A stretch of 64,000 nucleotides of DNA. Origin: a virus. The stretch spans positions 62,001-126,000 of the IMG/VR virus record IMGVR_UViG_3300021962_000021; one strand, given 5' to 3'. The position numbers were made by a program, and so were the translations under genes. Every line of letters starts with the position of its first letter. Position 1 is the first letter of the stretch. The notes below the pieces were generated by a model. The model did not search any database. It was not told where the DNA came from and worked only from the letters and a program-made list of their open reading frames with translations. Positions 7,209 through 61,444 of the stretch are shown here, piece by piece.

Positions 7209-7969
7209 AATTTAGAATAACACACATTAGCGATACACATAATAAACACAAACAACTAAATGGTAAATTGCCAGGAGGAGATTTGTTAATCCATAGTGGA
7301 GATATTACATCTATTGGTAGAAAGCACGAAATTGAAGAATTTATCAAATGGTTCAATGGAATAGAAGGATATACTACTAAAGTTTTTATTGCAGGTAATC
7401 ACGATATGACCTTTGATAAAGAAGTTCTAATGAGAAGAAAATTAGATTATTTTGATGGTGGTAGAAACAATTGGGATACTCCTTGTGCAGAAGGTAAGCC
7501 TGAATGGTTGATTACTTTATTAGAAACAGGACTTAATTCTAATGTATTTTATTTGGAAAATTCTTTTATAGAAATAGACCAAATAAAAATATGGGGTTCA
7601 CCATACTCAGCAACTTTTGGTTATGGTTGGGGATTCAATGTGGATAGAGGACATGATTCTGCACAATTGTGGAATACTATACCCGAAGATACTGATATTG
7701 TAATTACTCACGGACCTGTTTATGGATATGGTGATAGAACAGCAAATACAAATGAAAATGTAGGTTGTGCGGATTTATATCATAGATTGAATGAATTAAA
7801 AACTCCTTTACATTTTACAGGACACATTCATGAGGGATATGGATATAAGCAAACTACTTGGGGTGGTTACTCCTTTAACGGATGTACTTGTAATTTAAGG
7901 TATGAAGCTTTAAATTCACCTATTACTTTTGATTATGATTTTATTAGTAAAGAATTAAATTTTCTTTAA
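7205..7969 (+). CDS. metallophosphoesterase, MPPED-like
   Basis: 254 aa with all calcineurin-like motifs: ISDTH (8-12), HSGD (30-33), GNHD (64-67), THG (168-170) and TGHIH (205-209). The compact form and the central GSPYSATFG segment recall the MPPED2-type phosphoesterases, which act on small phosphodiesters; the substrate here is unknown. This is the second phosphoesterase in the window and is distinct from the one at 3442. It is coupled to the SGNH-like gene by an overlapping stop/start. Confidence 0.8.
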   Translation: MKFRITHISDTHNKHKQLNGKLPGGDLLIHSGDITSIGRKHEIEEFIKWFNGIEGYTTKVFIAGNHDMTFDKEVLMRRKLDYFDGGRNNWDTPCAEGKPEWLITLLETGLNSNVFYLENSFIEIDQIKIWGSPYSATFGYGWGFNVDRGHDSAQLWNTIPEDTDIVITHGPVYGYGDRTANTNENVGCADLYHRLNELKTPLHFTGHIHEGYGYKQTTWGGYSFNGCTCNLRYEALNSPITFDYDFISKELNFL

Positions 7970-16961: not shown

Positions 16962-17207
16962 ATGGCAAGTATAGACATTGATATTGATGATATCATATAT
17001 GGTTTAATGGGATATGAAAAGCAAGAATTAGCGGATGAACTTTATGAAGCGGGTTATGTTCCTAAACAAATTCAAGGAACTTTAGCTGATCCTGATAATA
17101 AGAGTTCGGAATTTGATGAACAAGTCAAAAAGTTAATTGGCAATAGTTGGAAACTATCCAAAGAAGATGAAGAAACAATTTTACGAATAACAAATAAATT
17201 AATTTAA
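16962..17207 (+). CDS. hypothetical protein, 81 aa
   Basis: Begins with alternating Ile and Asp (S-I-D-I-D-I-D-D-I-I) and is acidic and helical after that. Ends in N-K-L-I and abuts the next start without a gap. Confidence 0.6.
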   Translation: MASIDIDIDDIIYGLMGYEKQELADELYEAGYVPKQIQGTLADPDNKSSEFDEQVKKLIGNSWKLSKEDEETILRITNKLI

Positions 17208-32023: not shown

Positions 32024-32333
32024 AATAATAACACTATCAAATGAGATGATTGATTTGTTAGATGAAGCTCAGTTCTTTGAAGGTAATCCCTTTATTGAAC
32101 GATTACCACTTAAAAGAAAATTGCAAATTGCAATGCAAAGAAAGTGGGAACAAGAATTTGAAATGCATTTGACCGATTTAGAAGTTGAAAAAATAATGCA
32201 AGAAACTCTATCGGATTCGGTTGGTGATACAATTGAAAGTTTAGTGCAAAAAGGTGCATTGAATATGAGTATAGGGTCGGATGGTGAGATAGTTTATTCG
32301 GCAAATAAAGATTTTAACTTTGATGATTTATGA
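32007..32333 (+). CDS. hypothetical protein, 108 aa
   Basis: Helical acidic protein with a repeated L-x-x-E pattern; overlaps both neighbours. No family recognised. Confidence 0.55.
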   Translation: MDILPEIITLSNEMIDLLDEAQFFEGNPFIERLPLKRKLQIAMQRKWEQEFEMHLTDLEVEKIMQETLSDSVGDTIESLVQKGALNMSIGSDGEIVYSANKDFNFDDL

Positions 32334-33529
32334 TAGATAATAAGGAAAACAATTTTGAAAAAGAAATACTTAATAAGTATGCCTGCAATTCTCCATTTAA
32401 ATATATAGATGTTCAACCGCTTGGTAATTTCGTTTGTTGTCCTTTTTGGAATAAAACTAATTTAAGAGTTAATAAAGAAGGTGAACCAAATCCTTGGTTT
32501 GCAGTTGATGAAGATGAAGATTTATTAAGAAATTGGACTTCACCACAAGCCAAAAAAGTTAGAAGGGATATTTTAGATGGTTCATATGAGTCTTGTGATA
32601 AAGTTGTTTGTCCGTGTTTATCTCAAATATTAAGTAAGAGTCAAATTGAAGGTAAAGAGGTTATTCCATATAACTTTCAATTGAAAGAAGAACTGATGAA
32701 AGAATTAAATATCAGCTCGATAGAAGATATTGAAAACTTTGATATTACACCTGAGGAAATACTTTTTGGATTTGATAGAAGTTGTAATTACAAATGCCCA
32801 TCTTGCAGAACACATTTAATACCAAATGATGATGTTGATTCGATAGAATATAAAAGAAAAAAAATCATTATTGATAAAATAGATGAACAATATTCTTGGA
32901 ATTTAAGAAAAATTATAATAACAGGTTCTGGTGACCCGTTTTATTCAAAAATATTTAGAGAATATTTACAAAATTTTGACCCTAAAAAATATCCAAAGTT
33001 AAGAGAAATACAATTGGTTACGAATGGCTCTTTATTAAATAAGCAGATGTGGGATACCATGCCAAATATACATCAATATGTTAAGTGTATCGAAATAAGT
33101 ATAGATGCTGCAACTAAATTAACATATGAAACCAAAGTTAGATTGGGTGGAGTTTGGGAAACGCTTATACAAAATTTACTATTTCTTTCAAAATTAGAAA
33201 GTGTAGAAAGAGTTGTATTTTCTATGACTGTTAGTAAAAATAACTACAAAGAAATGTATATGTTTTGGGAGTTATTAAAACCTTTGTTCGAACATAAAAA
33301 AGTATTGGTTATAAATTATAGAAGATTGGTGCAGTGGGGAACATTTACACCCGAAGAATTAAAAGATTTATGTGTATTTGAAAAAGACCATCCATTGTTT
33401 TCCGATTTTATGAAAGAGTTAAAAAGAATACATCAACTACCACATGTTGATAATAATTTTAATGATTTGATTATTGAGGATGAAAAAGAAAAAACAAAAC
33501 CATTTAAAATACAAAAAAGTTTAATTTAA
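32330..33529 (+). CDS. radical SAM protein with N-terminal cysteine-rich domain
   Basis: 399 aa. The radical SAM motif C-N-Y-K-C-P-S-C (Cys152, 156, 159) follows F-G-F-D-R-S. G-S-G-D-P (about 200-205) is placed as the GGE-like SAM site, then E-I-S-I-D-A on a later strand. The N-terminal 90 residues contain C-N-S-P-F, C-C-P-F-W and C-D-K-V-V-C-P-C, a SPASM-like second cluster site located before the core. Close in design to the protein at 60380. Such enzymes modify peptides or sugars; the target is unknown. It ends K-S-L-I. Confidence 0.8.
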   Translation: MIDNKENNFEKEILNKYACNSPFKYIDVQPLGNFVCCPFWNKTNLRVNKEGEPNPWFAVDEDEDLLRNWTSPQAKKVRRDILDGSYESCDKVVCPCLSQILSKSQIEGKEVIPYNFQLKEELMKELNISSIEDIENFDITPEEILFGFDRSCNYKCPSCRTHLIPNDDVDSIEYKRKKIIIDKIDEQYSWNLRKIIITGSGDPFYSKIFREYLQNFDPKKYPKLREIQLVTNGSLLNKQMWDTMPNIHQYVKCIEISIDAATKLTYETKVRLGGVWETLIQNLLFLSKLESVERVVFSMTVSKNNYKEMYMFWELLKPLFEHKKVLVINYRRLVQWGTFTPEELKDLCVFEKDHPLFSDFMKELKRIHQLPHVDNNFNDLIIEDEKEKTKPFKIQKSLI

Positions 33530-33530
33530 A

Positions 33531-34937
33531 ATGAAAGTATTATTTGGATATGATATTATGACTTACAATGGTGAAATGCCAAATTGTCTGCATCCAAAAT
33601 TTTTGAATACAATATATCAAGCTTCCGATTTTAATTATGCATTCTCAGGAGAGCATTTTCAAAATAGATGGAATATCGGTTGGCATTTATATAATTCCAA
33701 TTTTTGGAATAACTATGTTGATAAAAAATCAGTATATGAAATTATAAATAATCACAAAAACACAAAATGGTTTTATCCGGTAGAACCGTTTGGAAGTATT
33801 GAAAGTTTTTTTGGAAACCATCCTACCTTTAATGAATTATGTTTAAAACAAATTTCATCAGTAGCATTGAATGAAATCAAAAGTGGTAATGGTAATTTAT
33901 TAATTAACTATATCATTGATGGTGGATTAGGAATTACAAAATCGAATTTCAAAAAGTTAGTTGATTTTACAAGAGAAAACGAAATACCCGATGAAAAGGT
34001 TTACCTGATATTTCAGGATTTTAAACTACAATCAAATCTTAAAAAGATGGGTGTTAATTACAATGTATTTGATTTTAATTTAGCACAACTATCTAAATCA
34101 CAGGAGTTTAATAACATAATTAATAATCCTGATTTTAAATTTTGGGGTGATAATTCATTTGAACCACAATTTGGACAAACCGAACATACTGCAAATAGTG
34201 TTTTAACATTTGAAGAATTTGAAAATAGTATAGGAAATCAAAAAAAGGATTTTTTATTTTTATGTAGACATTGGAAGTTGCATAGATTACTTATACTTTC
34301 AAAATTACATAAACTTGGAAAACTATTTTACAATAATACATCTTGGGATAAAAAGTTTTATCACGAAGATGTAATTACTGAATTTTTAAAACATGATGAA
34401 AATTTAGAATTGGCAGAAATAGTTAAAACGGTTTCTAAAAATTTAGATGTATCGGATTTGACTAAAATAGCAGGATATGGTTTTGAAAATAAATCAATAT
34501 ATTTAAATTCTTATATCAGTTTAGTTTCGGAATCTATATTTTTTCAAGTTAGAGATGATGAAGATGTATATGTAGAATTTCCAACAGGATATCTAAGTGA
34601 AAAGATTTGGAAACCAATAGGACACGCACAACCATTCATATTAGCCGGTCCTGCTAAATCTTTACAATACTTACAAAGTTTAGGATATAAAACCTTTCAT
34701 CCATACATTGATGAAAGTTATGATATAGAAACCGATGATTTTAAAAGATTGGAAATGATTTTTGAACAAATAGAAAAGTTTACTAAAAAATCAAAAGAAG
34801 AAAAGGATGAATTTTTACTTAATGTAAAAGATATTGTTAAACACAATCAGCAATTATTTTTAGATTATTCCAAAGAAGCATATAAAGATGATTGTAAAAA
34901 TATAATAAATTCATTAGCAAAACAAACTTTAATATAA
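33531..34937 (+). CDS. glycosyltransferase-like protein, 468 aa
   Basis: The N-terminus has M-K-V-L-F-G-Y-D. The C-terminal third shows V-S-E-S, Y-L-S-E-K-I-W-K-P, Q-P-F-I-L-A-G, L-Q-S-L-G-Y-K-T-F and I-D-E-S-Y-D, the pattern of phage GT-B-like transferases related to the protein at 10885. It lies directly after a radical SAM gene (1-nt gap) and ends Q-T-L-I. Probably glycosylates a phage or host surface component; donor unknown. Confidence 0.55.
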   Translation: MKVLFGYDIMTYNGEMPNCLHPKFLNTIYQASDFNYAFSGEHFQNRWNIGWHLYNSNFWNNYVDKKSVYEIINNHKNTKWFYPVEPFGSIESFFGNHPTFNELCLKQISSVALNEIKSGNGNLLINYIIDGGLGITKSNFKKLVDFTRENEIPDEKVYLIFQDFKLQSNLKKMGVNYNVFDFNLAQLSKSQEFNNIINNPDFKFWGDNSFEPQFGQTEHTANSVLTFEEFENSIGNQKKDFLFLCRHWKLHRLLILSKLHKLGKLFYNNTSWDKKFYHEDVITEFLKHDENLELAEIVKTVSKNLDVSDLTKIAGYGFENKSIYLNSYISLVSESIFFQVRDDEDVYVEFPTGYLSEKIWKPIGHAQPFILAGPAKSLQYLQSLGYKTFHPYIDESYDIETDDFKRLEMIFEQIEKFTKKSKEEKDEFLLNVKDIVKHNQQLFLDYSKEAYKDDCKNIINSLAKQTLI

Positions 34938-42129: not shown

Positions 42130-42336
42130 ATGACTTACGATTGTCACGGTAAATCACATTCTTTTGTAAAAGAGGATTTTGAAAATTGGTTATTGGTTAA
42201 TCAATCCAAATTACCACTTGAAGTAGTTACAGGAAATTCAGAACATATGCAAAGAATAATTAAAGGTGTTTTGGAATTTTACGATTTTGATTATTACATA
42301 CCGCCAACAAATAATGGAGTTATTAAAATTATATAA
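42130..42336 (+). CDS. Smr-domain protein, 68 aa
   Basis: D-C-H-G-K-S-H (4-10), E-V-V-T-G-N-S-E-H-M-Q-R-I-I-K (about 31-45) and N-N-G-V-I-K-I (about 61-67) follow the Smr (small MutS-related) domain order D-x-H-G / T-G-x-G / G-x-x. Smr domains are nucleases, several acting on mRNA or branched DNA. A stand-alone minimal Smr in a phage could process RNA or recombination intermediates; activity is inferred. Confidence 0.6.
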   Translation: MTYDCHGKSHSFVKEDFENWLLVNQSKLPLEVVTGNSEHMQRIIKGVLEFYDFDYYIPPTNNGVIKII

Positions 42337-53206: not shown

Positions 53207-53785
53207 ATGGTTATAGATGTATATAACGGAAAATGGGGAGTTCCCGCGAAATGTGGTTCTCGATATTTTTCTAAAACCGTATTATTACTTAATTCACACA
53301 TTAATATAAATTATAGAGTTCCGTTTGAAAAATTAAACAAACTGGGATTAGAAGTGATTATAATACGAAATCCACTTTCACATTTAGAATCTGCTTTACA
53401 AACGGAAGTGATGGAGTGTTGGGATGATTCGGATAAAATTCTAAAGATATTATTAAAATTTTCCGATATACAATTTGGTGGAACACACTATCATCCACAT
53501 TTTTGTGAAAAAATATATTATATTTGGTATAATAGTGAATTGAGAATAGTGGATTTATCCAATCTTTCCGGATTTATGGAAGAAATATTGAAAACCATAC
53601 CATACAATCAAAATGAATACGATTTTCATACTGAACCAAATTATAAATCAAAAAAAGAAGTTTGGGATAAGTGCGTTGATTTATATCCTGAATTGATGGA
53701 TAAATTGATTAGATATACCCAAAGTGATATGAAGTATTATAATGCTTTATTGAATAAGGATAAGAGTTTAATTAAAATAATATAG
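53207..53785 (+). CDS. sulfotransferase-like protein, 192 aa
   Basis: V-P-A-K-C-G-S-R-Y-F (12-21) is placed as the 5' phosphosulfate-binding loop, and I-I-I-R-N-P-L-S-H-L-E-S-A-L (about 51-64) as the 3' phosphate motif with R and S. This is the sulfotransferase layout, using PAPS as donor. First of three such genes in the modification cluster. Ends L-I-K-I-I. Confidence 0.6.
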   Translation: MVIDVYNGKWGVPAKCGSRYFSKTVLLLNSHININYRVPFEKLNKLGLEVIIIRNPLSHLESALQTEVMECWDDSDKILKILLKFSDIQFGGTHYHPHFCEKIYYIWYNSELRIVDLSNLSGFMEEILKTIPYNQNEYDFHTEPNYKSKKEVWDKCVDLYPELMDKLIRYTQSDMKYYNALLNKDKSLIKII

Positions 53786-53827
53786 GGTCTATCAATAGAG
53801 ATACCAAAAATTTTCTTTTAAAAAACG

Positions 53828-53847
53828 ACCTCCCCCAACCCCCACCC
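53828..53847. other. C-run element, possible G-quadruplex on the - strand
   Basis: CC-T-CCCCC-AA-CCCCC-A-CCCC directly upstream of the promoter at 53849. This is exceptional base composition for this AT-rich window. Possibly a quadruplex or protein-binding element. Confidence 0.4.
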
Positions 53848-53848
53848 C

Positions 53849-53880
53849 TTTTGGTAAATTCAAAAATTATTCGTATATTT
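53849..53880 (+). promoter_or_regulatory. Bacteroidota-type promoter for the modification cluster
   Basis: TTTG at 53849-53852, 20-nt spacer, TATATTTG at 53873-53880 (perfect -7). The spacer is almost identical to that of the promoter at 12252. Confidence 0.8.
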
Positions 53881-53897
53881 GTTCATAAAACTAAACT

Positions 53898-54461
53898 ATG
53901 ATATTAGAAGATAAAGGTATATCGGTAATTCCAAAGTTTCTATCAAATGAAGAATGTGAATGGATTATAGATAAATGTCTTTCTGATTTGGATTTAAAAG
54001 ATGCGGAAGTATACAATACATATAAAAAAGAAAGTCAGAAAAAGACAAGAAAATCAAAAGTTGCATTTGTGGGTGATTTAAATAACATCAATACAAAAAT
54101 TACAAATGAAATATTAAAAAGAACACCGAAACAAAGAGGTTATGAATTATATGTTGAAAGTTTTCAATTTACAGAATATAATGTAGGCGATTACTTTGAT
54201 TGGCATTCTGATTCAAATGATAATATCTTTAAAGATAGAATATATACAGTTGTGATACAATTAAATGATGAGTATACTTCTGGTGATTTTCAATTAATGT
54301 TAGAAAATTCTATAACATTAAAACCAGGAAAAGGTAATATGTTTATATTTCCATCGGCAATATTACATAGAGTAAAACCCGTAGAATCAGGAAAAAGATA
54401 TTCATTAGTTAGTTGGTTGAAATTAAAAAAAATAGAAAATAATAAAACAGAATTGATATAA
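53898..54461 (+). CDS. 2OG-Fe(II) oxygenase, PKHD-like
   Basis: 187 aa. Iron ligands His103-x-Asp105 (W-H-S-D) and His157 (I-L-H-R-V-K-P-V). Arg167 (K-R-Y-S-L-V-S-W) is placed to bind 2-oxoglutarate. This is a complete jelly-roll dioxygenase of the prolyl-4-hydroxylase/PKHD type. Likely hydroxylates a protein, sugar or lipid; target unknown. First gene after the promoter; overlaps the next by one base. Ends T-E-L-I. Confidence 0.85.
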   Translation: MILEDKGISVIPKFLSNEECEWIIDKCLSDLDLKDAEVYNTYKKESQKKTRKSKVAFVGDLNNINTKITNEILKRTPKQRGYELYVESFQFTEYNVGDYFDWHSDSNDNIFKDRIYTVVIQLNDEYTSGDFQLMLENSITLKPGKGNMFIFPSAILHRVKPVESGKRYSLVSWLKLKKIENNKTELI

Positions 54462-55114
54462 TGGAATTTACAAAATATAATTTCGGGCCCGAATTAATGA
54501 AAACCAATATTGATTTGGATTTATGTAAAGAACTTCTATCCGTTGGGAGAAATGAAATTTTAATAGATAATAAGCTCGATTCCATAACATTTGATACATC
54601 TTACAAATATAGTTTTGAAAATGTAAGTTATTTTAAAAATAAAATTTCCGTTTATATAGAAAATTATATAAAAGAAATTGCCAAAATTAGAAATTTAAAG
54701 CCATTTCGATTTGGAATTAATATTGAAGATTTATGGATTAATTTTCAAAAAAGTAGAGATTTTAATTCTCCACATTTTCATGCATATGATATATCCTTTG
54801 TAATATATGTGGATATGCCGGATGAAATTAAAAATGAAAAAACTATTAAAAGAGGATTTCAAAATGGAAGTATATCATTTTTATATGGACAAAATGTAAA
54901 AAAATTTGATTCAAATGCACAAGAATTTTCAAATACGGTAAATAGTTATATGTCACCGATAACACAGATAAATCATTCACCGATTACAGGGGAAATGTTT
55001 ATATTTCCAGCGTATTTAATGCATTATGTTAGTCCATTTTTTACAAAAGATGTAGAACGGATATCAGTTGCGGGTAATGTCAGTTTAATAGATAATAAAA
55101 AAAGTATAATATAA
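54461..55114 (+). CDS. 2OG-Fe(II) oxygenase-like protein (2OG-FeII_Oxy_5 type)
   Basis: 217 aa. W-I-N-F-Q-K followed by S-P-H-F-H-A (His105 and His107) and I-Y-V-D-M-P, then E-M-F-I-F-P-A-Y-L-M-H-Y-V (His188) and a late R-I-S-V-A-G-N. This is the motif order of the second phage 2OG oxygenase type, in which the first site is H-x-H rather than H-x-D. Ends K-K-S-I-I. Overlaps both neighbours by one base. Confidence 0.75.
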   Translation: MEFTKYNFGPELMKTNIDLDLCKELLSVGRNEILIDNKLDSITFDTSYKYSFENVSYFKNKISVYIENYIKEIAKIRNLKPFRFGINIEDLWINFQKSRDFNSPHFHAYDISFVIYVDMPDEIKNEKTIKRGFQNGSISFLYGQNVKKFDSNAQEFSNTVNSYMSPITQINHSPITGEMFIFPAYLMHYVSPFFTKDVERISVAGNVSLIDNKKSII

Positions 55115-55401
55115 TGAGTTTTAATCCTAAAGAAATTATTAATGCTTGGATTACATCATTCAACCCTAATTCAACACAAAAGAGTTTAGCAGAAGAACGT
55201 ATGAGCATTTGTATGAAGTGTGAGTTTAGAAAAGAAATTATACACAATAAAAAATGGTCTGCAATATGTGGTGGATGTGGATGTCCTTTAGAAAAGAAAA
55301 TATTTACAGACCAGGCCGGAACATGTCCAAAATCAAAGTGGAATAGTGTTGAAGAAAAATATATAAAAACTCTAAAAGTTAAAACTAAAACAATTATTTA
55401 A
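55114..55401 (+). CDS. zinc-ribbon protein of the modification cluster, 95 aa
   Basis: C-M-K-C (about 33-36), then C-G-G-C-G-C (about 51-56) and a final C-P-K-S: at least six Cys for one or two zinc sites. Related small proteins sit beside 2OG oxygenases in other large phages, as far as I recall. Ends T-K-T-I-I. Confidence 0.6.
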   Translation: MSFNPKEIINAWITSFNPNSTQKSLAEERMSICMKCEFRKEIIHNKKWSAICGGCGCPLEKKIFTDQAGTCPKSKWNSVEEKYIKTLKVKTKTII

Positions 55402-55403
55402 TT

Positions 55404-56045
55404 ATGAAAAAAATTACGTTTGAAGATGGTGTAGATTTGTATATAGTAAAATTAGAAAATACAAAGTTACAATCTGATGTTTTAGGAAATTGTATATCAT
55501 TTTTATCTACCGCCAATTATGTTCCCCAAGATAATTATCCATATTTAAACGATTGGGGTAGTTTTGATTTTAAAAAAGAAATGATACCATCGAATTATAT
55601 TGAAGAAATTATTAAAATTTGTTTGAATGAATGTGTTGAGTTAGGTATAAAAGATGAACTGAATTTTAATAAAGTTAATATTAATGCTTGGATAAATGTT
55701 GTAAAAACTGGAAAACCAAAACAAAATAATTTTAAATATGGTGGTGATGTTAAATTACATAACCACATAGATTTGCAAAAAATTATAAATTCTTTTTATC
55801 CGGAATATACTTTTGTATATTATGCCCAAATGCCAAATAATCTATCAGATACGGAAGGCACTTTAATAGTAGAAGGTAAAAACAAAAAAAGATATTATTA
55901 TTTACCAGAAGAAGGTGAAGTGGTTATTATGAAATCTAATTTAGAACATTCACCAAATAATTCACCCAATTCAACAAAAAATAGAATTGTTATAGCGGGT
56001 AATGTAGGATTTGAATCTGCGAAAAAAATTAGTAGTTTAATTTAA
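55404..56045 (+). CDS. 2OG-Fe(II) oxygenase-like protein
   Basis: 213 aa. K-L-H-N-H-I-D (His119, His121, Asp123), Y-Y-A-Q-M-P, a late E-H-S-P and R-I-V-I-A-G-N-V-G-F give the same motif set as the protein at 54461. Ends I-S-S-L-I although the next gene is 37 nt away, so the ending is not forced by overlap. Confidence 0.7.
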   Translation: MKKITFEDGVDLYIVKLENTKLQSDVLGNCISFLSTANYVPQDNYPYLNDWGSFDFKKEMIPSNYIEEIIKICLNECVELGIKDELNFNKVNINAWINVVKTGKPKQNNFKYGGDVKLHNHIDLQKIINSFYPEYTFVYYAQMPNNLSDTEGTLIVEGKNKKRYYYLPEEGEVVIMKSNLEHSPNNSPNSTKNRIVIAGNVGFESAKKISSLI

Positions 56046-56082
56046 AAAACCAATATATTTATATAAATAAGACAATAAAAAA

Positions 56083-57618
56083 ATGAAAGCATTAATAATT
56101 GGAACGGATTTTTTAAAGGATGCATCCGGTAATTTAAGAATAATAGAAACAAACACAAATGTGGATGTTCATAACAAAATTGTTCCACAATTGGATTGGA
56201 ATACATTTAAGCAATTTTTAATAGATAATTCTATTACAAAATTGCATTTTATATATACGGATGGTAATTTTATAAATACGGAAAAAGAAAATGTATTTGA
56301 TACAACAACAGAAAATATATCTTTAAAAGATAAAATGAGTGAAATAATGGTTGAATTATCAGGCACATTCAACCACTATGAAGTTCCTAAAAATTCAATA
56401 ACAGTTCCATATATAGAAGATGCGGATGATGTATTAATACTGAGAACATCATATGATACTACTGCATTAGTAGATGAAAATTATGCAAAAGATAAGGTAA
56501 ATTTTCATAGAGTAATTTCAAATGAAACATTTGCACCAAACGTGTATTATCATTCAGAAACTGATACAAATCTTAATATAGACCAATTAGTAAATTTACA
56601 TACTACAGCCGGCGATGCACCGAATTATATTGTAAAAACAAGATATCCAAATACAAATTATTTAACTTATCCAAAGTTTTACAAAATACAATCATTGGAA
56701 TCTTTACAATCTTTAAAAGATTCATTAACAGAATTGGAATATATAGAAGAATACCACACACACCCGGATAATTTTATTGATAATAAAATAGGCGTAATAA
56801 GAAGTTTGGATATAATATATGGTGGAACATTAAGTATATTACATTTGGGTTCGTATATTATGACGGCCGGTGTTGAAAATGATGCGTGGGTAACCGAATA
56901 TGATACAAATGGTAAAATGGAACAAAATTCCAGAGTATTATGGATGAGTAAATCCCTAATAAGTAAATTTGGTACAACTTATATTTTGGATGATGATACA
57001 CCAATATTATATTCAGATGGAAGTTTTAAATATCCAAATCAAATTTTAGTTAATGATTCATTAAAAACGATAACTCTTCCTTGGGTTCCACTAAATGAAA
57101 CATCCGAAACAGGAGAAGTATTATATATGCCAGATTTGAATTCAGGAAGTTTCAGCTCTGACTTAGAATCATTTACTCAATCAAATACAACCGTAATTGA
57201 TTTAGGAACACAAACTAAAGAATCCCTAATGATTAGGGTAACATTGGAAAATGGTATAGTTTATGAAGATTTGCCGGCTAGTTCTATGTTGGTAGAGGAA
57301 TACGATACATTACAAACTACATTTGTATTTACAAATAGATTTAGAATAAATGATTCAATTGTATTTTTTGATTATGTGAATAATACTTTAGTAAAATCAA
57401 AAATAACAAATTTGGAAATCGTATATGTTAATAAAAAAATATATGATATAAATGTTGAAACAAATGATTTGTTTTTACCATTAGCAGATGAAACATTGGG
57501 ACTTACTTTTGTACAACACAACGGTACATGTTATGGTTGGTGTGGTGCTTGGATGTGTGCAGTTTGGTGTTGTAGTGCATGTGGTTTCTGTGGTGGCCAA
57601 CCTCCTTCAAAACTTTAA
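56083..57618 (+). CDS. ATP-grasp-like plus Hint-like protein with seven-Cys tail
   Basis: 511 aa in three parts. Residues 1-295 have L-R-I-I-E-T-N-T-N-V-D and Y-I-V-K-T-R, features of ATP-grasp/TTL-like proteins, but the match is weak. Residues about 300-480 read as a Hint (hedgehog/intein) domain: D-T-P-I-L-Y-S-D-G (305-313), R-I-N-D-S-I-V-F-F, K-K-I-Y-D-I-N-V-E, ending V-Q-H-N (477-480). Residues 481-511 hold seven Cys (483, 487, 492, 496, 497, 500, 503) with Trp and Gly. The residue where an intein starts with Cys or Ser is Ile here, so splicing is doubtful; cleavage after Asn480 is conceivable. It is the only large protein of the cluster without an Ile end (S-K-L). Confidence 0.55.
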   Translation: MKALIIGTDFLKDASGNLRIIETNTNVDVHNKIVPQLDWNTFKQFLIDNSITKLHFIYTDGNFINTEKENVFDTTTENISLKDKMSEIMVELSGTFNHYEVPKNSITVPYIEDADDVLILRTSYDTTALVDENYAKDKVNFHRVISNETFAPNVYYHSETDTNLNIDQLVNLHTTAGDAPNYIVKTRYPNTNYLTYPKFYKIQSLESLQSLKDSLTELEYIEEYHTHPDNFIDNKIGVIRSLDIIYGGTLSILHLGSYIMTAGVENDAWVTEYDTNGKMEQNSRVLWMSKSLISKFGTTYILDDDTPILYSDGSFKYPNQILVNDSLKTITLPWVPLNETSETGEVLYMPDLNSGSFSSDLESFTQSNTTVIDLGTQTKESLMIRVTLENGIVYEDLPASSMLVEEYDTLQTTFVFTNRFRINDSIVFFDYVNNTLVKSKITNLEIVYVNKKIYDINVETNDLFLPLADETLGLTFVQHNGTCYGWCGAWMCAVWCCSACGFCGGQPPSKL

Positions 57619-57630
57619 AAATAATTAAAA

Positions 57631-57750
57631 ATGAAAGATAAAATAATTTCTTCGGAAATAGTATTAACCAATAACACCACAAATCAGGCCATTGCAACTA
57701 TTATGCAGCAGGTCGCAAACTTAATTTATACGGATGTAACTGGTTCATAA
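57631..57750 (+). CDS. small protein, 39 aa
   Basis: ATG 57631, stop 57748-57750. Polar helix with T-N-N-T-T-N-Q-A-I-A. Sits between the Hint-like gene and a sulfotransferase gene. No family recognised. Confidence 0.45.
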   Translation: MKDKIISSEIVLTNNTTNQAIATIMQQVANLIYTDVTGS

Positions 57751-57761
57751 ATTTTATTAAA

Positions 57762-58496
57762 ATGGTTATAAATAATTGTATTGTTTTTATACCAATACCA
57801 AAAAATGCATCTTGGTCGGTAGAAGATACTTGTATTGAATACGGGTTGGATTTAACATATCCGAATATTTTATGGGAAAATTCTATTAAATTTGGAGTAA
57901 AAAATCCAGAAAAACATATTCATTCGGATATAAATTATTTAATTGATTCGCTTGGTATGGATTTTGAATTTGTATGTATAATAAGAAATTCTACGGATAG
58001 ATTTATATCAGCTTGGAAATTTTTTATACAAGAAATAATTCAAAGTATATCCGAAGAGGGTTCAAATATCCTTAAAAATTTAGATAATAATTTTATAATT
58101 TCTTTTTTTAAAGACAACATATACGAATTCAAAAATGCGTATATATCTTATGAAACTAGAGTAAATCTCCTAATAAAATTATTAGAAACGGCGGGTGTAA
58201 TTCAATATTATAATATATCCGATGAATTTAAAAAAAGATACGCAATACACATTATGTCATTCGTATCGCAATATCAATGGATATCATCATCAAAAGTAAA
58301 AGTAAAAGAATTTCATTTTGATAGATTATATGAATTTGAAGATTATATATCAAAAAAACTTAATATAGATTTTAAGTTAATTCATAAAAATAAAACGCAA
58401 TTAGATTATTCTGCAATATTGAAAACCGATGAATTAATAAAATTTGTCGATACATATATTGATGGTTCATACAAAAGAGTTAAATCTATTATTTAA
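57762..58496 (+). CDS. sulfotransferase-like protein, 244 aa
   Basis: I-P-I-P-K-N-A-S-W-S (about 10-19) as the 5' phosphosulfate loop and V-C-I-I-R-N-S-T-D-R-F-I-S-A (about 67-80) as the 3' phosphate motif. Sulfotransferase family with PAPS donor; acceptor unknown. Ends V-K-S-I-I and overlaps the next start (TAATG). Confidence 0.7.
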   Translation: MVINNCIVFIPIPKNASWSVEDTCIEYGLDLTYPNILWENSIKFGVKNPEKHIHSDINYLIDSLGMDFEFVCIIRNSTDRFISAWKFFIQEIIQSISEEGSNILKNLDNNFIISFFKDNIYEFKNAYISYETRVNLLIKLLETAGVIQYYNISDEFKKRYAIHIMSFVSQYQWISSSKVKVKEFHFDRLYEFEDYISKKLNIDFKLIHKNKTQLDYSAILKTDELIKFVDTYIDGSYKRVKSII

Positions 58497-59317
58497 TGAA
58501 ATTATTTACATTCGGTGATAGTTGGACCGAAGGAGTTGGTTCCGATTGGCAGGAAGAATTAAAAACCGAAGATTTAGAAGAAAGAACAAAAATACGTCAT
58601 AAATACGCATGGCCTACATTGTTATCAAAACATTTAAATATTCCTTTTGATAATTTTGGAATAGGTGGTTGTTCTAATAAAAGTATATTTGATGCAGTTT
58701 GTAATTCAGTAGATACCGATTTAATTAAAAAAGATGATTTGGTTGTTATAATGTGGAGTTCATCTTTAAGAGATTCTGTTCCATTTTTTCCTGATAATAA
58801 TTCCTGGCACTATTGGGGTGAGAGATATAAACGAAAAGAATATTTGTATAAAAAAGTATTTAAAAATACAAATATAACTACAAAATACGATAGAATAAAA
58901 AAAGAATATCAAGAATATTTTTTAGCAAATTTATTTACGGATGAATATTATCAAATCGTAAACCAAAATTATATTTTATATTTACAATGGATGTTTAAAA
59001 AAATTGGTATAAGATATATTTTTTGTGATGCATTTGATTTAATGATAAAAGATGATATTTCAAAAAACATAGATAAAACTAATCTAATTGATAAAAACCA
59101 TTATTGGGGTATTTCAAATAAAACTTTAAAAGATTTATTAATAAATACAAATAGAAAGGATGTGTGGGGAGATGGACAACATTGGAAAGATTTAACAGAG
59201 GGTAAACATCCTAACAAAAATGGATATAAATTAATTGCGAATGAACTATATGATTTTATATTAAATAAAAACATATTAACATATAAGACGAACAATATCG
59301 AAAATATTATTATATGA
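58496..59317 (+). CDS. SGNH hydrolase, 273 aa
   Basis: F-G-D-S-W-T (6-11, Ser9 as nucleophile), N-F-G-I-G-G-C-S-N (about 53-61, block II/III Gly-Asn), V-V-I-M-W-S-S-S and a C-terminal K-H-P-N-K-N-G-Y with the catalytic His. A clear SGNH esterase/acyltransferase. In surface glycan loci these add or remove acyl groups. Ends E-N-I-I-I. Confidence 0.75.
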   Translation: MKLFTFGDSWTEGVGSDWQEELKTEDLEERTKIRHKYAWPTLLSKHLNIPFDNFGIGGCSNKSIFDAVCNSVDTDLIKKDDLVVIMWSSSLRDSVPFFPDNNSWHYWGERYKRKEYLYKKVFKNTNITTKYDRIKKEYQEYFLANLFTDEYYQIVNQNYILYLQWMFKKIGIRYIFCDAFDLMIKDDISKNIDKTNLIDKNHYWGISNKTLKDLLINTNRKDVWGDGQHWKDLTEGKHPNKNGYKLIANELYDFILNKNILTYKTNNIENIII

Positions 59318-59859
59318 ATTATTATATAAACAATTTGTTTGATAAAAAAGAATGCCAATCTATAATAGAATTTGCAGAAAATAATGGCATACAATTTTCA
59401 TATAATCCAAATGAAGTATGGGATTGTAAAAGAATTTATGATGATGAATTTAAATCAAATATAATTCAAAAAATCAAAGAAAAATATAATAAAAATGAAT
59501 TTAAATTATGGTTTGATTTGAATAAATTTAATATAAAGGATGTAAATATTAGTTTGACAAAGTATTATGATAATAGATGGTTGGATTTGCATTTAGATAC
59601 TACATCACAATTTACAACAGTTATAGTTTTATCGGCCGGATTTAGTGATGGTAGCTTCGTATTATCCGAAAAAATGGATGATATAAAAAATGGAAATAAA
59701 TACATACTAAATATTGGTGAATCTATTTCATTTGATGGTAGTAAAACATATCACGGTGTAATGCCAGTCTATTCAGGTATTAGATATGCATTAAATATAT
59801 GGATGACAAATACAGATTTTAAATATTATCAATTAGATAAATCAAAAAAATTGATATGA
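59314..59859 (+). CDS. 2OG-Fe(II) oxygenase, PKHD-like, 181 aa
   Basis: L-H-L-D (His93-x-Asp95), Y-H-G-V-M-P-V (His147) and G-I-R-Y-A-L-N-I-W give the complete H-x-D...H...R set. Similar in layout to 53898 but divergent in sequence. Overlaps both neighbours by 4 nt; ends S-K-K-L-I. Confidence 0.8.
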   Translation: MNYYINNLFDKKECQSIIEFAENNGIQFSYNPNEVWDCKRIYDDEFKSNIIQKIKEKYNKNEFKLWFDLNKFNIKDVNISLTKYYDNRWLDLHLDTTSQFTTVIVLSAGFSDGSFVLSEKMDDIKNGNKYILNIGESISFDGSKTYHGVMPVYSGIRYALNIWMTNTDFKYYQLDKSKKLI

Positions 59860-60380
59860 ATATTTTAATAATTTCCTTACCAAGAACAGGTTCCACCGAA
59901 TTAGGTAAAAAATTAGCAATTGATAATAAATTGGTTTATAATTTTGAACCATTTAATCCATTTAATAAAATAAATACTCAAAATAATATTCATAATGTAG
60001 TTATAAAAACAATTATATTTCATAAACCAAATTCTATAAAAGAATCCAATAGAGTAGACTGGTTAATAAGTTTGATATCAAAATTTGAAAAAACAATTTT
60101 ATTAAGTAGAAGAGATTTAAAGGCATGTGCGGAAAGTTGGTCTTATCTAAACTATAAAATGAAAACATCGAATTTTTCATCTATATCACAATATCTTTGG
60201 GAAAAAACACCAAACTATGATGAAGCATTTTATAACATAAAGTTGTGGAATGATGAATTAAACTATATATCGCAAAAAACAAATATACCAATAACTTATT
60301 ATGAAGATATCTATGATTTAAATGATAAAAATAGATTGAGAAAAGGAAATAAAGATGATTATAATTACAATTTAATATAA
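59856..60380 (+). CDS. sulfotransferase-like protein, 174 aa
   Basis: S-L-P-R-T-G-S-T-E-L-G-K-K-L (6-19) is a very clear 5' phosphosulfate P-loop, and L-L-S-R-R-D-L-K-A-C-A-E-S-W (about 80-93) the 3' phosphate motif. Third sulfotransferase-like gene of the cluster. Overlaps the radical SAM start (TAATG); ends Y-N-L-I. Confidence 0.75.
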   Translation: MNILIISLPRTGSTELGKKLAIDNKLVYNFEPFNPFNKINTQNNIHNVVIKTIIFHKPNSIKESNRVDWLISLISKFEKTILLSRRDLKACAESWSYLNYKMKTSNFSSISQYLWEKTPNYDEAFYNIKLWNDELNYISQKTNIPITYYEDIYDLNDKNRLRKGNKDDYNYNLI

Positions 60381-61444
60381 TGATTGATTTAAAAGATTAT
60401 ATATGCAAAGTTCCATTTGAAATATTGGAAATACATGATGAATCTTATTTTTTATGCTGTGCAAGTTGGTTAAAAAAACACTTACCAAAGAATCAACCTA
60501 TGAAAGATGTGTGGAATAGTGATGAGGCAAAGGATATTAGAAAATCGGTATTGAATGGTTCATATCTTTATTGTGATAAAAAACAATGTCCGTATCTATC
60601 TCAATTAATAAATTTAAAAACCAATAATTTAGGTCCTATAAAACATTATTCTCAAATAGACCCATCTTTTTTTAATAATTACAATTTTGAAACAGGAAAA
60701 ATGTATCAGGGACCAAAAACCATACATATGAGTTTTGATAGGACGTGTAATTATAAATGCCCATCTTGTAGAATAGAAATGATTGTTGCAAATAGTGATA
60801 AAATACAAAAAATAAATATAACAATAGAAGAAATGGAATCTCTATATGCAAACGATATAGAAATGATATATTGTTCAGGCACTGCAGACCCGTTTGCTTC
60901 CGTTTCATATAGAAATTTTTTAAGAAAATTTAATCCTAAAAAATATCCAAATTTAAAATCAATACACTTACATACAAATGCCAGTTTATGGAATAAGGAA
61001 ATGTGGGATAGTATGCCGGAAATACATGATTATGTAAAGAGTTGTGAAATAAGTATTGATGCTGGTTCAAAATTTACATACGAAAATGTAACAAGATTGG
61101 GTGGTAATTGGGATAATTTAATATCCAATCTTAATTTTATTTCAACCATAAAAAGTATACAAACTGTAAAATGTTCATTTGTAGTTCAACAATCTAATTA
61201 TACAGAAATGTCTGAATTTTTAAGATTAATTACTTTCATATTTGGTAATAAAACAAAAGTATTTTTTGGAAGAATAACTAATTGGGGAACATTTTCCGAT
61301 GAAACCTTTAAAATGATTGATGTGGGTAATGTGCTACATCCAGAACATTCTTTGTTTTTAGATGAGTTCAAAAAGGTAGCCACCAATCCATATGTATTTC
61401 ATAATATGTATGATTTAATAGAAATAAAAAAATCTATAATTTAA
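60380..61444 (+). CDS. radical SAM protein, second copy
   Basis: 354 aa. Radical SAM motif C-N-Y-K-C-P-S-C (Cys123, 127, 130). The N-terminal cluster site C-K-V-P-F ... C-C-A-S-W ... C-D-K-K-Q-C-P-Y matches the protein at 32330, so the two are paralogues. A G-T-A-D-P and an S-I-D-A strand follow as in that protein. Last gene of the operon; it still ends K-K-S-I-I although no gene follows closely. Confidence 0.8.
   Translation: MIDLKDYICKVPFEILEIHDESYFLCCASWLKKHLPKNQPMKDVWNSDEAKDIRKSVLNGSYLYCDKKQCPYLSQLINLKTNNLGPIKHYSQIDPSFFNNYNFETGKMYQGPKTIHMSFDRTCNYKCPSCRIEMIVANSDKIQKINITIEEMESLYANDIEMIYCSGTADPFASVSYRNFLRKFNPKKYPNLKSIHLHTNASLWNKEMWDSMPEIHDYVKSCEISIDAGSKFTYENVTRLGGNWDNLISNLNFISTIKSIQTVKCSFVVQQSNYTEMSEFLRLITFIFGNKTKVFFGRITNWGTFSDETFKMIDVGNVLHPEHSLFLDEFKKVATNPYVFHNMYDLIEIKKSII

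Follow-up and report, generated by a model that had tools for sequence, protein, structure and literature searches.

A shared C-terminal ending in a viral gene cluster

The window analyzed here is a 64,000-nucleotide stretch of viral DNA, bases 62001-126000 of an IMG/VR virus record of 238,219 bp that, judged by its terminase, portal and sheath, belongs to a T4-like myovirus; the closest terminase from an isolate, that of Flavobacterium phage immuto, is 54% identical. A gene cluster in this window encodes enzymes of several kinds around a 511-amino-acid Hint-like protein that we named HINT, and most of its products end in Leu-Ile or Ile-Ile. The original prediction, made from the sequence alone, had listed this ending on twelve proteins encoded at two places. 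Translation confirmed all twelve C-termini: in the second cluster ten of twelve genes carry the ending, the exceptions being HINT and a 39-amino-acid protein, and the comparison enzymes starting at 7969, 10885, 36607 and 38429 lack it. Among the other genes of the genome, an end of the form [LI][IL] occurs in 7 of 246 (at least 80 amino acids, outside the cluster). At this background, 10 of 12 would arise with a probability of ~2e-14 (binomial), which rules out chance as the source of the ending.

The tagged genes at the two places, the HINT gene and the gene of the 39-amino-acid protein all lie on the + strand; genes bearing the ending are referred to as tagged. Upstream of the HINT gene, a 192-amino-acid protein without a Pfam match (..LIKII, 53207..53785), from a homology family of 11 with 6 tagged members, is followed by two 2-oxoglutarate (2OG)-Fe(II) oxygenases, one ending ..KTELI (53898..54461; PF13640, E 2e-15; domain end at residue 174 of 187) and the other ..KKSII (54461..55114; PF13759, E 2e-12). 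Next come a small Cys-rich protein of 95 amino acids (..TKTII, 55114..55401) and a 2OG-oxygenase-like protein (..ISSLI, 55404..56045) that matches PF13640 at E 3e-4, under the Pfam cut-off. Since PHROG 13558 covers only residues 20-76 of the Cys-rich protein, its tag sits on an added extension. Downstream of HINT lie a protein ending ..VKSII (57762..58496), an SGNH/GDSL hydrolase (..ENIII, 58496..59317; PF00657, E 4e-7), a further 2OG oxygenase (..SKKLI, 59314..59859; PHROG 61, E 1.5e-9), a sulfotransferase-like protein (..NYNLI, 59856..60380; PF00685, E 0.0013, under the Pfam cut-off) and a radical S-adenosylmethionine (SAM) protein with an N-terminal twitch domain (..KKSII, 60380..61444; NF033640, E 2e-15, under the cut-off of that model). 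The other location encodes a paralogue of this radical SAM protein (..QKSLI, 32330..33529) and a 468-amino-acid protein (..KQTLI, 33531..34937) from a family of 10 with 7 tagged members.

The twelve proteins had been described as enzymes of families that share no ancestry, which holds in part: they fall into 10 homology families, the radical SAM pair consists of paralogues sharing 41% identity, and several others are all 2OG oxygenases. Pfam did not confirm the glycosyltransferase call for the 468-amino-acid protein or the sulfotransferase call for the protein at 57762, and the sulfotransferase call for 59856 corresponds to the sub-threshold Sulfotransfer_1 match given above; sulfotransferase and glycosyltransferase names used here thus partly rest on matches under curated cut-offs. 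Relatives of the 57762 protein start with LSLPRCAST, which may represent a sulfotransferase-like P-loop.

The ending recurs in relatives and is a protein-level tag

Related loci were collected from IMG/VR by scans that used the radical SAM protein and HINT and then an alignment of HINT, yielding ~100 loci that are only partly independent of one another. Genes were called as open reading frames starting with ATG, and overlaps were pruned in a simple manner. As many of the contigs are incomplete, absence of HINT from a stretch does not imply its absence from the phage. The cluster is found again in these contigs, its set of genes differing strongly from one to the next, with products that likewise end in KSLI, KTLI, NKLI, KSII, KKLI, NYLI and the like. 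The tagged share falls with distance from the HINT gene: within 1 kb it is 89% upstream and 90% downstream, at 1-2 kb 78% and 86%, and at 6-7 kb 7% and 12%, respectively.

From 520 deduplicated tagged genes we derived the consensus K-x-x-K-[S/T]-[L/I]-[I/L]-COOH. The residue classes at -1 (Ile 77%, Leu 23%) and -2 (Leu 76%, Ile 24%) are given by the selection rule itself; further inward, Ser or Thr occupies -3 in 62%, Lys -4 in 55% and Lys -7 in 49% of the genes. By single-linkage clustering, the ending is borne by 26 homology families with at least two members showing it, a few of them weakly, and common ancestry of the enzymes as its source was accordingly rejected. They include 2OG oxygenases (for whose relatives a single-sequence search gave one match), SGNH hydrolases, sulfotransferase-like proteins, twitch-domain radical SAM proteins, tryptophan halogenases, methyltransferases and the 95-amino-acid Cys-rich protein. 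Two families, those of the 57762 and 59856 proteins, have no untagged member (68/68 and 67/67). Paralogues encoded away from the clusters are often untagged, such as the SGNH proteins of the same genome that end in KIKKML and KEKFEF.

An ending of this kind could arise at the nucleotide level if codon bias yielded Leu/Ile-Ile through translation coupling or where an A/T-rich region for ribosome binding precedes the next gene, and overlapping genes far from the cluster do end in [LI][IL] somewhat more often than others (14-25% versus 6%). Yet the codons behind the ending in the 520 genes comprise both Ser codon families, all six Leu and all three Ile codons and all three stops, and 230 of these genes have no overlap with the next gene. 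Among non-overlapping genes no more than 3 kb from HINT, 199 of 261 (76%) are tagged, while in the same genome outside the clusters the ending occurs at 1 of 34 TAATG and 1 of 23 ATGA overlaps. In the HINT-less relative immuto it is found in 4 of 121 genes. Codon usage and overlap counts thus led us to reject a coupling or codon artefact, which we regard as highly improbable.

The original prediction, which had argued against mere translation coupling, proposed that a tag should persist while upstream sequence diverges, and that homologues without the ending, or an ending tracking only with TAATG overlaps, would speak for an artefact. We found that in 94% of homologue pairs at 20-30% identity both members keep the ending, with residues -5 to -15 matching at 12%. 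It is also retained although the enzyme families that bear it are many and vary between phages, and it is frequent near HINT without any overlap. Its proposal of a common C-terminal tag is therefore borne out by the relatives and the overlap tests. Together, the codon variety, the overlap tests, the retention under divergence and the halogenase contrast described below establish the ending as a real protein-level tag.

HINT carries a Hint domain followed by a Cys/Trp-rich peptide

HINT consists of an N-terminal domain (~290 residues), followed by a Hint domain and then a tail. The N-terminal domain (residues 1-290, 56083..56952) contains invariant E22/N24, K138, K185, R240 and D243, and the Hint/intein-fold domain (about residues 300-480, 56980..57522) ends in an invariant His479-Asn480. 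An AlphaFold2 model built with 68 relatives reached a predicted local distance difference test score (pLDDT) of 83 with a disordered tail, superseding an earlier model from 14 sequences (pLDDT 58). In Foldseek searches this model matched BIL2 (E 3.5e-7), hedgehog (E 3.9e-7) and also inteins. The C-terminal motif [QM]HN is present in 87 of 87 full-length HINT members, whereas inspection of the alignment did not reveal the N-terminal Cys/Ser and TxxH of this domain (Hint1).

The segment behind the His-Asn motif, in the window GTCYGWCGAWMCAVWCCSACGFCGGQPPSKL (57523..57615), is disordered in the model and would be the product of the system. Its length across relatives is about 25-35 residues, of which 21.5% are Cys and 8.9% Trp, and the Cys pattern is invariant; such a Cys-rich peptide is present in nearly all HINT members (e.g., SCWCPWNYCGHWCNSWYCPGC.. 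in others). Mean pairwise identity is 53% for the N-terminal domain and 49% for the Hint domain, compared with 33% at the non-Cys positions of the tail. In four loci, encoding the HINT proteins L044:10001-11920, L045:10001-11947, L046:2076-4001 and L048:10001-11926, the peptide lies exactly between the His-Asn of Hint1 and a second Hint domain that has Cys1, TxxH and a final His-Asn and matches Pfam Intein_splicing and PT-HINT. The order His-Asn, peptide, Cys1 resembles designs for cyclic peptides, and the double-Hint product could thus be cyclic. A segment bracketed by self-cleaving modules in differing architectures seems marked as something to be cut out.

Directly 3' of the HINT gene lies the untagged 39-amino-acid protein (57631..57750), and nearly all relatives that reach that far have a 37-52-amino-acid counterpart there. 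This small gene occurs in two types, that of the window (MKPKIISSEIVLTS..) or one of 37-52 amino acids with the pattern ERPAQTIK..IKxKHL, and is always untagged.

Tryptophan halogenases link the tag to HINT

To relate the tag to HINT within one enzyme family, we gathered 86 viral tryptophan-halogenase homologues from IMG/VR whatever their context. The end [LI][IL] is present in 20 of the 21 whose stretch includes a HINT gene and in 10 of the 65 whose stretch has none (Fisher p=3e-11). The ten tagged HINT-less cases lie on short contigs on which other genes are tagged as well, suggesting clusters cut off by the contig end. Tagged halogenases retain the GxGxxG motif and the catalytic Lys and Glu (PF04820, E 1.6e-89; GGGTAGW, K73 and E287/E290 invariant).

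The one exception among these 21, in locus L125, ends in KNQLF, and the same -LF end is found there on two proteins unrelated to it, a 2OG oxygenase (PKGLF) and a Cys-rich protein (TSTLF). The near-identical contigs L265 and L266 repeat these ends. That unrelated proteins changed in concert suggests that a single reader recognizes them all. In locus L267, three enzyme genes have HINT on their other side, and all three are still tagged (TLL, SLI, SLF). Across 38 HINT groups, families of one phage agree in their last residue more often (0.651) than under within-family permutation (0.614, p=0.0065); position -3 behaves likewise (p=0.01), whereas -2 and -4 show no such excess. This within-phage agreement lends modest support to a shared reader and could be partly phylogenetic.

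Two untagged halogenases of 411 amino acids (L126:9989-11224 and L127:1056-2291) occur in phage stretches without HINT, the former next to large, possibly structural genes, indicating that halogenases of viruses are not confined to HINT clusters. The joint occurrence of a halogenase gene and a Trp-containing peptide was discarded as evidence, being confounded by clade.

A proposed peptide-maturation system and its alternatives

These data are best explained, with a probability that we put at roughly 0.6, by a viral maturation system resembling those for ribosomally synthesized and post-translationally modified peptides (RiPPs), in which the tagged enzymes dock via their tag and act on the Cys/Trp/Tyr-rich C-terminal peptide of HINT. 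The tag, placed on a Lys-rich end, would mark the enzymes of one pathway, and its free carboxylate together with Leu-Ile would dock them on the HINT precursor or on a complex or partner around it. The 2OG oxygenases, radical SAM proteins, tryptophan halogenase, sulfotransferase-like and SGNH proteins and methyltransferases recruited in this way would modify the peptide while it is still tethered to HINT. The Hint domain would then cut after its invariant His-Asn to free the peptide, the other end of which may be cut by the second Hint domain in some phages. Such tailoring of a peptide is in keeping with the radical SAM enzymes and 2OG oxygenases, and with a halogenase that would act on a peptide rich in Trp.

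Several observations weigh against this model. The halogenases of the four double-Hint loci (L044:13250-14779, L045:13330-14841, L046:5332-6861 and L048:13238-14770) are untagged though they lie inside the cluster, and no halogenase was found in the record of the window phage, though its peptide contains Trp. Hint1 apparently lacks the N-terminal Cys and TxxH, so that only C-terminal cleavage is plausible for it. In addition, the HINT protein of locus L129 (L129:7632-9269) has no Cys-rich peptide; a Lys-Trp alone precedes a domain resembling the endosialidase chaperone (S74), and in L038 (L038:10001-11746) a Cys-rich segment is followed by such a domain. The S74 assignment is based on sequence recognition and one PHROG match (L038), and these tails raise the possibility that some HINT proteins associate with the virion. 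As separate observations, the untagged halogenases of the double-Hint clusters measure ~503-510 amino acids versus 402-420 in other clusters, and the tags of the L129 neighbors are degenerate (KTKFI, KKNCL, KTKLL).

The S74-like tails are also why we keep some weight on a different function, in which the ending would direct the enzymes to the inside of the particle or to its tail, with HINT as virion anchor or as the protein being decorated. The L038 segment matches a virion structural PHROG (E 1e-7), and the clusters of several relatives adjoin very large genes. We nonetheless judge a packaging or assembly tag unlikely, as the known structural genes elsewhere in the genome are untagged, the enzymes need SAM, FADH2, 2OG and possibly 3'-phosphoadenosine-5'-phosphosulfate, which are available in the host cytosol, and the double-Hint architecture around the peptide would be left unexplained. 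Less probable still is a C-terminal degron that limits enzyme lifetime through a host or phage protease. Hydrophobic C-termini are recognized by several proteases, yet this tag is confined to one pathway and to HINT phages, and a dedicated reader would better explain its Lys/Ser/Thr positions and the change to -LF in one lineage. The original prediction had left docking, packaging, targeting and proteolysis side by side; the tag stands, and this list proved too open, as the evidence points to one partner. Because the tag is tied to HINT, encoded in the same cluster, docking in a peptide-maturation complex is favored over packaging or degradation.

A covalent variant of docking, to which we assign slightly less weight than to packaging, would have the N-terminal domain of HINT act as a RimK-type ATP-grasp ligase that uses the tag carboxylate, either joining the enzymes to the peptide or HINT or capping them. 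RimK and LysX-type ligases work on protein C-termini. The domain has invariant ATP-grasp-like residues, and its motif order is suggestive of a circularly permuted RimK-type ATP-grasp. We examined this by a PDB profile search, Pfam on 29 HINT members, in silico circular permutation and hhalign. RimK matches were weak (3 of 29 members, E at least 0.05). The permuted HINT profile aligned with 80 RimK sequences with DK, QEYI, DIR, GVD and EVN in order, but the hhalign E-value of 0.095 (controls, 0.24 and 0.47) is not significant, and four of five permuted single sequences had no RimK match, the fifth reaching E 0.19.

Relation to known systems

HINT resembles the precursors of RiPP pathways, among them those for radical SAM/SPASM, halogenated and 2OG-modified peptides, in that a variable peptide, rich in Cys and Trp, follows a longer conserved part as its C-terminus; genes for radical SAM, tryptophan halogenase, 2OG oxygenase, methyltransferase and sulfotransferase-like proteins adjoin the HINT gene, the peptide being their presumed substrate. 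The invariant His-Asn of the Hint domain suggests release of this core peptide. In contrast to RiPP pathways, the "leader" would be a protein of ~480 residues with a Hint domain at its end, all systems are in phages, and the enzymes share a C-terminal tag and have no evident peptide-recognition domain; Pfam and NCBIfam scans of representative cluster proteins detected no recognition domain. We propose that the tag is the equivalent of this domain.

With bacterial intein-like (BIL) and other Hint domains, HINT shares the fold and the invariant C-terminal His-Asn expected for cleavage by Asn cyclization. It differs from them in Hint1, as described above, and in the proposed product, a short Cys/Trp-rich peptide. 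Searches of INPHARED and of bacterial genomes (GTDB genome contigs) also yielded no relative of HINT, for which reason a bacterial origin was dismissed; the radical SAM protein likewise has no relative in INPHARED. Encapsulin cargo-loading peptides and similar targeting tags offer a parallel in that unrelated enzymes would dock through a common short C-terminal peptide. The present tag, unlike these, spans four to seven residues and is tied to a Hint precursor; no encapsulin-type shell gene was noticed beside the clusters, though no search was aimed at encapsulins. The pattern K-[S/T]-[L/I]-[I/L] also fits class I PDZ ligands ([S/T]-x-hydrophobic-COOH). As to a PDZ reader, no PDZ_6 domain was found in the phage record; the tag may be recognized by another fold or by a protein of the host.

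A phage-encoded flavin-dependent halogenase has been described in VirX1 of cyanophage Syn10, the open active site of which takes bulky substrates (PMC8407142). The halogenases of HINT phages differ in being tagged and in having a candidate peptide substrate, a comparison that leaves out the locus and C-terminus of VirX1. Full-text literature searches on RiPPs, Hint domains and phages returned no report of such a system. Its parts (Hint, halogenase, radical SAM and 2OG proteins) are of known kinds; what appears to be new is the tag and the way in which these parts are arranged.

More broadly, and more tentatively, with chances that we place somewhat below even, a family of large tailed phages may encode a peptide natural product of their own, in which HINT would excise a Cys/Trp-rich peptide and a modular set of quickly exchanged enzymes from >20 families would be recruited by a four-residue tag. 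Both peptide ends would possibly be formed by intein-type chemistry, and any captured enzyme could join by gaining the tag. Recruitment of >20 homology families by one four-residue C-terminal tag would be uncommon, and such a plug-and-play principle could serve in the engineering of pathways with several enzymes. For the tryptophan halogenases, 2OG oxygenases and radical SAM proteins of these phages, the model makes the concrete and testable prediction that their substrate is the small Cys/Trp-rich peptide of the neighboring HINT gene. The product would be a peptide natural product of viral origin released by a Hint domain, chemistry without description in the literature searched.

Tag-like ends outside the clusters

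Isolated genes with tag-like ends occur outside the clusters, in the window at 16962-17207 (TNKLI) and 42130-42336 (IKII) and elsewhere in the same genome at G000:160790-162124 (KTNII) and G000:6970-7725 (KQTIL); they could be chance occurrences or members acting in trans. A conserved block downstream of the cluster encodes a Nol-like carbamoyltransferase (L023:4099-5793, corresponding to G000:129099-130793; PHROG 1601, E 5e-120) that precedes an SGNH protein ending in KNKVI.

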